The position numbers were made by a program, and so were the translations under genes. The notes beneath the pieces are model-generated. The model was not told the origin of the DNA, made no database searches, and worked only from the letters and a program-made list of their open reading frames with translations. This document shows, one piece after another, positions 57,629 to 60,504 of a stretch of 64,000 nucleotides of DNA. Within the stretch, counting starts at the first letter, position 1. The number at the start of each line of letters is the position of its first letter. Origin of the DNA: Selenomonas sp. F0473. GTDB lineage: Bacteria > Bacillota > Negativicutes > Selenomonadales > Selenomonadaceae. The stretch lies in the NCBI RefSeq assembly GCF_000315545.1, contig NZ_JH992902.1, forward strand, positions 1,920,638 to 1,984,637, read 5' to 3'.

Positions 57629-58525
57629 ATGCGTCTGCGCGGTATCATGATGCTTCTCACGGCGTCCTTCTTTTGGGGGACGACGTTCGTGGCGCAGATT
57701 GTGGGCATGGAGGGGCTCGGGCCTTATACGTATGCGGCGCTGCGGTTCGCGCTCGGCGTCCTGTGCCTCTTGGCGCTATGGCTCGCATACGGCGGCAAGC
57801 GCGCGCAGATGCGGCGGGCGGGGACCTATCGCTCGGGTTTTCGCGCAGGCGTCTCGGTGGGTCTGGCGATGTTTGTCGGCGTGACGCTGCAGCAGGTCGC
57901 TATGATCTATACGACGGCGGGCAAGACGGCGTTCATTACGACGCTCTACATCGTCCTCGTGCCGATCGGGGCGATGCTGCTCGGGCAGCGTATCCGCCTC
58001 GTCAACTGGCTGGGCGCGGTCTTTGCCTTTGCCGGAGTATACTTCCTCTCGGCCTACGGCGAGATGGAGCTCAATGCGGGCGATGTGCTCGTATTCATCA
58101 GCGCGTTCTTTTGGATGACGCAGATTCTCCTCATTGACCGTTTCGCGCGTGCGGTGGACGGGATCGAGCTCTGTCTTTCGCAGCTGATCGTCTGTACGAT
58201 CGGCAGCATCGTGCTCGCTGCGCTCTACGAGACTTGCACGTGGGCGGCGGTGCGCGGGGCGGCGGCGCCGATCCTCTACGGGGGGATCCTTTCCTGCGGC
58301 GTCGCCTATACGTGCCAGATCCTTGGGCAGGCATATGTGCGTCCCGCGCAGGCGGCGGTCATCCTGTCGCTGGAAGCGGTCGTTGCCGCTGTCGCGGGCC
58401 GTCTCGTCCTCGGGGAGGTCATGGCGCCCGTGCAGATCGCGGGCTGCGCGCTGCTCCTGGCGGGCGCGCTCATTACGCAGATGCCCGAGGATACGTTTTC
58501 GCGTCAATCGCCGCACACGCGGTGA
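57629..58525 (+). CDS. EamA/DMT-family transporter
   Basis: Protein of 298 residues with ten hydrophobic helices in two EamA repeats. FFWGTTFVAQ and AGKTAFITTLYIVLVPIGAM are typical of the RhaT/YdcZ-like drug-metabolite exporters. It starts 3 bases after the ABC ATPase, so is likely in the same transcript; amino-acid export is possible. The substrate is not readable. Confidence 0.92.
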   Translation: MRLRGIMMLLTASFFWGTTFVAQIVGMEGLGPYTYAALRFALGVLCLLALWLAYGGKRAQMRRAGTYRSGFRAGVSVGLAMFVGVTLQQVAMIYTTAGKTAFITTLYIVLVPIGAMLLGQRIRLVNWLGAVFAFAGVYFLSAYGEMELNAGDVLVFISAFFWMTQILLIDRFARAVDGIELCLSQLIVCTIGSIVLAALYETCTWAAVRGAAAPILYGGILSCGVAYTCQILGQAYVRPAQAAVILSLEAVVAAVAGRLVLGEVMAPVQIAGCALLLAGALITQMPEDTFSRQSPHTR

Positions 58526-58543
58526 CGTCATAAGGAGTCTATT

Positions 58544-59662
58544 ATGCCGACAGAGGGAATTGTCAAACCGAAAATCACCATCAAAGTGGTCGGCGTCGGC
58601 GGCGGCGGCAACAATATCGTGCGCTGCGTGCGTGAGAAATACAACCTCGATCTCACGCTGATCGGCATCAACTCGGATATGAGGCAGCTTCACGCGCTCT
58701 ATAAGGAGGGCATCTCCGTCCTGCCCCTCGGCGAGAAACTGACGAACGGGCGCGGTACGGGCGGACGCGTCGAACTGGGGGAACAGGCGGCGCGCACGGA
58801 GGAAAAGAAGATCCGCAGCACCCTCGAGGGAGCCGATCTCGTCATCATCGCGGCGACGATGGGCGGCGGGTTCGGGACGGGGGCGGCGCCCGTCGTCGCG
58901 GAGATCGTTCACGATCTCGGCATTCTCTCGATCGGCGTCGTCACGACGCCTTTTGCCTTCGAACTGCCGCGCAAAATGGCCACGGCGCAGGAGGGCATCG
59001 TGCGGATGCAGGCGCTCACCGACGCGTGCATCACCGTCCGCAATGAAAACCTCATGAAAATCGCGCCGAACCGCAGCATGTCCTTTGTCGAGGCGTTTGC
59101 GCTTGCCGACGAAGTACTGCGCCAGACGGTCGGCTGCGTGGCGGAGTTGATTCTGACGACGGGCGTCATCAACGTGGACTTTTCCGATGTGACGACGATC
59201 TTCCGCCAGAGCGCGTCGAGCGACGCGCTGCTCGCCATCGGGGTCGACGATACGCCGCAGAAAGCCATCCGCAGGGCGATCGAAAGCCCGCTCATTGACC
59301 GCAGTATTACGGGAGCCCGCGGCGTCGTGCTGAACCTTACGGGTGATCCGAAGATGAGTCTGCGCGATGTCGACGAGGCGGTGCATTTCATTCATAAGAG
59401 CGCGCATCCCGAGGTCAATATCATCGCGGGGCTCGCCGTGCAGCCGGAGATGGCGGGCAAGGTGCAGGCGACCGTGATTGCGACGGATTTCGACGACGGC
59501 AGCGCCGTCCGTAAACAGGAGGACGCGGCGCCGCCCGAGAGCGCGGTGCCGGCCGATACGTTCGATTTTGATATGCCGTCGTTTATGCAGAATCCGCCGC
59601 CGTCCAAGCCGGGGATCGGCGGCGCCTTTGCCATTCCTCCGTTCCCGCCGCATCGGACATAG
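58544..59662 (+). CDS. FtsZ-family tubulin-like GTPase, divergent paralogue
   Basis: Protein of 372 residues. FtsZ polymerises at midcell as the division ring. Recognisable loops: T1 [11 protein letters not shown]5 [12 protein letters not shown]7 [14 protein letters not shown] with the catalytic Asp residues kept, and a C-terminal peptide FDMPSFMQ like the FtsA/ZapA-binding tail. Two nucleotide-binding loops deviate: T4 reads [10 protein letters not shown] (Phe about 110 in place of Thr in GGGTGTG) and T3 reads NSDMRQL in place of NTDxQxL. No division genes surround it. It is probably a second FtsZ-like protein, not the main one. Confidence 0.88.
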
Positions 59663-59700
59663 ACGCCGGTTTCGTCGCGTATGTGAAAGGAGGAACGCGG

Positions 59701-60504
59701 ATGAAGGAACTCCTGCATGAGATGCACGCGTGGATGAACGGCTATATGCGTTCCTATCACACGGACGATGCGGAGGTCATGCGCGGGATCCGGCTCAAGG
59801 AGATCCACACGGGCTATGTGACCGCGAATGCGCGGGCGCTCGCGCGGCACCTCGGCTGCGGCCTGCACGACACGGCGCTCGCGGAGATCATCGGGCTCTT
59901 CCACGACGTGGGGCGGTTTCGCCAGTACGCCGTCTATCGGACCTTTAACGACGCGCAGTCGGAGGATCATGCGGAACTGGGGCTGAAGGTGCTTGACGGG
60001 CTCGATTTTATGGATCGGCTCAGTGCGGCGGACGCCGATCTCGTCCGCTTTGCGGTTAAGTATCACAATAAAAAGGAAATTGCGGCGACCGACGATCGGC
60101 GCAGGCTCTTTTTTGCAAAACTTATCCGCGATGCGGATAAACTGGATATTTACCGTGTTCTGCTGCCGTTCCTAACGCCCGAGGGGGCGGATAAAGCGCC
60201 GAACTTCGTGCCGTCGGATGCGGCGCAGGAGGTCAGTCCGGACTTTATCGCGGACTTTGCGGCGGGGCGGCAGGCGGATTACTATCGGCTCAGGACGCAC
60301 GGCGACCGCAGGATTGTGCGGCTGATGTGGATCTACGATATCAATTTCGTATGGACGCTGCGGCGCATCCGCGACCGCGGCTATATCGACGCGTTTATCG
60401 AGAGTCTGCCCGCACAGGCGGGTATCGCCGCAGGCGTTGCGCGGCTGCGCGCCTATGTGGCGCGGCGCTGCGGCGAAGAGGACCAAGCGGAATTATACGG
60501 ATAA
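59701..60504 (+). CDS. HD-domain phosphohydrolase
   Basis: Protein of 267 residues. H...HD...D pattern: [16 protein letters not shown] early, [12 protein letters not shown] near residue 67, and [12 protein letters not shown] near 150. HD enzymes cleave phosphate esters of nucleotides; the substrate is unknown. ATG 59701 follows AAAGGAGG. It lies between the FtsZ-like gene and glnS with short gaps. Confidence 0.9.

Follow-up and report, generated by a model that had tools for sequence, protein, structure and literature searches.

A second FtsZ maintained across the Selenomonadaceae, with a variable T4 loop and a possible role in the Z ring

The window, a stretch of 64,000 nucleotides from the genome of Selenomonas sp. 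F0473, contains a gene for an FtsZ paralogue, named here ftsZ2, which lies outside the cluster of division genes. Its presence raises the question of what a second FtsZ with an altered nucleotide pocket may contribute to a cell that already possesses the ordinary protein. The preliminary description of this locus, made from its sequence alone, suggested that the product could modulate the main Z ring. In the present study, this modulation appears plausible, and ftsZ2 is an ancient subfamily spread over the whole family of the window, not an oddity of a single genome.

The gene, its product and the canonical FtsZ

The ftsZ2 gene begins with an ATG codon preceded, about 10 bases upstream, by the ribosome-binding-like sequence TAAGGAG. 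As was found by the Pfam search, its product matches the Tubulin (PF00091, E 4.6e-34, 118.8 bits) and FtsZ_C (PF12327, E 5.5e-20, 71.9 bits) domains; it is about 41% identical to the FtsZ proteins of S. aureus and B. subtilis, the nearest ones with solved structures, and about 42% identical to the canonical FtsZ of the same genome. The product is a genuine FtsZ, although its score on the TIGR00065 profile (280.6 bits) is below the equivalog cut-off of 295.2, the canonical dcw copy scoring 394. Assignment to the FtsZ-like Tubulin_2/FtsZl1 type was ruled out, since FtsZ_C is present and the Pfam scan matched Tubulin and FtsZ_C alone, with no Tubulin_2 domain. An AlphaFold model built from a two-sequence input has a mean pLDDT of 57 and backs the fold alone. 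A reading frame of 625 amino acids on the opposite strand (57776-59653) overlaps ftsZ2 and is most likely a shadow frame arising from GC-rich coding DNA.

Table 1. Features of the ftsZ2 locus and position of the canonical ftsZ (window coordinates unless a contig is given)
Feature	Position	Strand	Remarks
EamA-family permease	57629..58525	+	Pfam; immediately upstream of ftsZ2, adjoins it in many family genera (ancestral neighbour)
ftsZ2 (ftsZ paralogue)	58544..59662	+	372 aa; domain and profile matches
GTPase domain	residues 13-174		
T1 loop GVGGGGNN, residues 17-24	58592..58615	+	alignment
T2 loop NSDMRQL, residues 43-49	58670..58690	+	NTDAQAL in ordinary FtsZ
T3 loop GRGTGG, residues 69-74	58748..58765	+	GLGAGA/N in ordinary FtsZ
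T4 loop GGGFGTG, residues 107-113	58862..58882	+	
T7 loop NVDFSD, residues 210-215	59171..59188	+	two catalytic Asp intact
FtsZ_C domain	residues 236-317		
Tail motif 1 FDMPSFM	59567..59587	+	resembles core of FtsZ C-terminal peptide
Tail motif 2 FAIPPF	59627..59644	+	
HD-domain hydrolase	59683..60504	+	Pfam; immediately downstream of ftsZ2, neighbour at genus level
Canonical ftsZ	G000:C1:720432-721376	-	in mur/fts cluster

The alignment bore out the reading frame, its coordinates and the T4 loop with Phe as initially described, Phe110 being aligned to Thr108 of E. coli FtsZ. An altered T3 loop had also been reported; the loop in question is indeed altered, but it is T2, and the true T3 differs from that of ordinary FtsZ as well. 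The nucleotide pocket is changed as proposed, and both Asp residues of T7 are present in the sequence INVDFSDV.

The genome is assembled as one contig of 2.07 Mb with a completeness of 99.9% and contains two tubulin-domain genes. The second of them is the canonical ftsZ, located in the mur/fts cluster after murG, murC-ddl, ftsQ and two small genes (DUF881- and DUF1290-like, named by reading), so the supposition that ftsZ2 is an additional FtsZ placed outside the division cluster was correct. The canonical product comprises 411 amino acids, with T4 GGGTGTG and the C-terminal end DIPAWMRQR. In the genus of the window, this protein has an odd T5 region, PFSYEGMTRA, and an odd H7 sequence, SKVDNVLWQ (L036 8196-9431), the forms elsewhere being PFSFEG and RIADDVLRQ. 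In the same cluster, murC and ddl form a single reading frame of 779 amino acids (L036 11305-13644). The mur/fts cluster has no ftsA in any family genome examined (L036 8196-14756; L266-L288); none of the 37 family genomes has an ftsA above the cut-off, and SepF was found in all 37. A connection between the loss of ftsA and the second FtsZ was dropped, because ftsA is also below the cut-off in families with one FtsZ.

Distribution and origin of ftsZ2

The relatives compared were 60 genomes, of which 37 belong to the family of the window and 23 to other families of the class. The paralogue was found in 36 of the 37 family genomes and in none of the 23 others, which have only ordinary FtsZ apart from the extra copies mentioned below. 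In the tree of canonical ftsZ, the only sampled family genome devoid of the paralogue, G003, is the sister of the window species. In a phylum sample scored against the ftsZ2 query, FtsZ proteins from outside the family reached at most 261 bits, and the best paralogue of each carrying family genome scored at least 299. Two or more tubulin-domain genes are present in 175 of 189 family genomes, a count that by itself does not prove the second gene to be ftsZ2, and the maximum is seven, in genus g12. A scan of genome contigs gave one match, an ordinary FtsZ.

Other FtsZ-like genes were also seen. Extra copies in two genomes that belong to other families (G043 and G046; loci L044, 8635-9699 and 11400-12467, and L046), one of them nearly in tandem, fall outside the paralogue clade. 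In genomes of g12 (G281, G282, G303, G305, G306, G342; L182-L199), FtsZ or tubulin-domain genes have expanded to six or seven, some of them very divergent or short. Additional strongly diverged FtsZ-like genes of some family genomes (L042, L043, L041, L187, L205) include several tail-less ones with an altered T2 or T3.

The phylogenetic analysis of both FtsZ types, suggested in the preliminary description, placed the 37 paralogues in a single clade, separated from the other sequences by a branch whose SH-aLRT support is 100 and by a long stem of 0.84 changes per column. Compared with the quick free tree, a constrained tree joining the paralogues with the canonical FtsZ of the family improved the likelihood by 44, and the AU test did not reject it (p-AU 0.90). 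Therefore, these data are compatible with ftsZ having been duplicated near the base of the family, after which the copy was probably inherited vertically at one chromosomal place. Many genera of the family have the EamA permease directly upstream of ftsZ2 and tcdA directly downstream, often followed by gpsA (tcdA and gpsA were named by reading the sequences). This appears to be the ancestral neighbourhood, in agreement with vertical descent; in the genus of the window, the HD hydrolase and glnS stand downstream instead. A horizontal or mobile origin was rejected, considering the conserved synteny, the failure of a pattern scan to find relatives in viral contigs and the identity of all plasmid matches, which is below 60%.

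Constraint on the nucleotide pocket and the C-terminal tail

The key residues of loops T1-T7, including NxDF.D and excepting the T4 Thr, are kept in both FtsZ subfamilies, and the residues conserved in both belong mostly to the nucleotide pocket and the longitudinal interface, including N210, D212, F213 and D215. Thr occupies the T4 position in 72 of 72 ordinary FtsZ proteins compared, the site varying solely in the paralogue, where position 110 is occupied by T in 11 sequences, F in 9, L and V in 6 each, A in 4 and I in 1 (n = 37). Searching 380 genomes of the class for the pattern GGGFGTGA in the DNA gave 13 matches, 11 of them in the paralogue and two by chance outside ftsZ (G347, G370). 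Hence, Phe is not a common variant of ordinary FtsZ in Negativicutes, with none among the 72 aligned and every genuine match in the paralogue. It is not the defining alteration that it was first taken for either, and T4 Phe was rejected as a signature of the subfamily, since the site drifts among T, F, L, V, A and I.

In E. coli, FtsZ T108A has nearly no GTPase activity; rings still form, and treadmilling is absent (PMC5979038, PMC8175707). If, as we infer, this effect extends from Ala to Phe or Leu, the paralogues lacking the T4 Thr should be slow hydrolysers still able to enter filaments and to provide T7 to a neighbour. Because 11 of the 37 paralogues (about 30%) retain Thr, slow hydrolysis cannot be a function common to all members of the subfamily, and a shared function cannot rest on the loss of this residue alone.

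The tail is variable too. As had been described, the window protein contains a DMPSF-like tail, DMPSFM, but this stands 24 residues before the end, is not directly followed by basic residues and precedes the second motif, FAIPPF. The retention of the tail holds for the window species, which has both motifs; the tail is missing in the other 12 of the 13 copies of the genus, all 12 congeners with ftsZ2 having a product that ends shortly past the folded domain. Most paralogues outside the genus are tailed. A motif of the xxPx[FW]M type is present in 21 of the 24 tail-bearing paralogues, including that of the window, and an FxIPxF-like motif in about ten tailed paralogues (about ten other family genera). 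Parsimony requires two tail changes, so the tail was either lost repeatedly or regained, which would be unusual. A recent frameshift as the cause of the loss in congeners was rejected, because no tail remnant was found downstream of their ftsZ2 in any frame.

Within the genus, the median omega over the folded part is 0.10 for ftsZ2, the highest pair reaching 0.15. The corresponding value for canonical ftsZ is 0.044; the synonymous sites being near saturation, these values are rough. The ftsZ2 gene is under purifying selection. It is very improbable that it represents a redundant paralogue heading for loss and having no function of its own, in spite of its absence from the sister of the window species, the repeated loss of tail and Thr and an evolution faster than that of canonical ftsZ: omega is low, the gene is retained nearly family-wide with a conserved position in many genera, and the reading frame is open in all copies read. 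Being located outside the division cluster and missing from the congener G003, ftsZ2 is not universally required.

Possible role and comparison with known systems

The pairwise distances of the two FtsZ proteins across 23 genera correlate with r 0.85, and the partial r is 0.76 given RpoB and RecA, a value reached in 0 of 3000 permutations. Given RpoB and any one of MurG, MurC, FtsQ, DUF881, TcdA, GpsA and EamA, the partial r is 0.68-0.83; the partial correlations of ftsZ2 with these seven genes given RpoB are 0.17-0.69, EamA being the highest. The covariation suggests a shared constraint, e.g., co-assembly or common partners, and it could also reflect shared partners as such, the shared fold or gene conversion. 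Since the evolutionary rates of the two proteins covary, Z-ring modulation gains indirect support.

We consider it about an even chance (roughly 0.5) that ftsZ2 encodes a family-specific accessory FtsZ, which co-assembles with the canonical FtsZ and slows or tunes the turnover of subunits in the Z ring. As the FtsZ fold, the loops of the GTP pocket and the two longitudinal faces are preserved, FtsZ2 should still bind GTP and polymerise head to tail, and the T7 loop of FtsZ2 would complete the active site of the adjoining subunit. In the many lineages that have lost the T4 Thr from their own pocket, hydrolysis of the bound GTP is predicted to be slow. Such a protein could join canonical filaments as a low-hydrolysis partner, thereby slowing or tuning subunit exchange, and, where its own tail has been lost, it would ride on the tailed FtsZ.

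A separate FtsZ-type filament, polymerising by itself, unmixed with the Z ring and serving a purpose other than division, such as shaping the cell or organising it polarly or laterally, seems rather unlikely. The separation of ftsZ2 from the division genes in every genus examined would suit such a filament, as would the long stem branch, the distinct T2/T3 signature and the second tail motif, which is unseen in ordinary FtsZ. However, the rates of ftsZ2 follow canonical FtsZ more closely than neighbour or control genes, and T7 and both longitudinal faces are conserved. It is still less likely that FtsZ2 is a conditional brake, a decoy that enters Z-ring filaments or caps them and, in certain conditions, inhibits division, being unable to reach the membrane after the loss of the tail. 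The tail-less copies of the genus, the disappearance of the T4 Thr in many lineages and the retained T7, with which filament entry is possible, are compatible with a brake, but the gene stands in a probable housekeeping operon with no sign of conditional expression, and the tail is kept in other genera.

The accessory, co-assembling FtsZ can be compared with several known systems. The ftsZ2 subfamily is not mentioned in two evolutionary surveys of FtsZ (PMC9871819, PMC2875224), and a targeted literature search, provisional and with subscription journals mostly outside its scope, found no description of it. FtsZ2 shares with canonical FtsZ the Tubulin and FtsZ_C domains and the T1, T5, T6 and T7 motifs; unlike it, FtsZ2 falls under the TIGR00065 cut-off, has an unconstrained T4 residue, a GRGTGG T3 and an extended or lost tail, is encoded outside the mur/fts cluster and evolves about twice as fast. 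FtsZl1 and FtsZl2 (PMC2875224) are likewise extra proteins next to a conventional FtsZ, but they are far more diverged and have no recognisable FtsZ C-terminal elements, whereas FtsZ2 has the full FtsZ architecture. The resemblance to E. coli T108A consists of the missing Thr at the same T4 position with T7 intact; the mutant carries a single engineered Ala, whereas the paralogues carry natural F, L, V, A or I within a diverged protein. In the archaeal FtsZ1/FtsZ2 pair of Odinarchaeota (PMC12583498), the two FtsZ proteins likewise differ from each other in membrane-tethering features, but the pair belongs to another domain of life, with an independent origin. The natural T/F/L/V/A/I series at T4, together with relatives in a single genus that have the tail, lack it or lack the gene, would make it possible to ask what a filament partner can spare in the GTP cycle and in tethering, and what a second FtsZ contributes to division.

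A further parallel is the chloroplast FtsZ1/FtsZ2 ring (PMC8142252, PMC11285052), in which two FtsZ proteins work in one compartment and one has no C-terminal tethering peptide. In the family of the window, there are two ftsZ genes per genome; the second is tail-less in nearly all copies of the genus, but a tail is carried by that of the window species and by those of the majority of the remaining genera. A two-component Z ring, made of a tethered, hydrolysing FtsZ and a naturally hydrolysis-poor FtsZ2 without a tail in most species of the genus, may tentatively be proposed as a bacterial counterpart that evolved independently of the chloroplast ring. The two systems differ in that the duplications are independent and that the co-assembly of FtsZ2 is suggested indirectly by rate covariation; moreover, plant FtsZ1, lacking the tethering peptide, speeds turnover, whereas the loss of the T4 Thr in FtsZ2 predicts a slower subunit. 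Plant division papers refer to a single FtsZ in bacteria (PMC8142252, PMC11285052), whereas in the family of the window two are retained family-wide, under selection and evolving in step.
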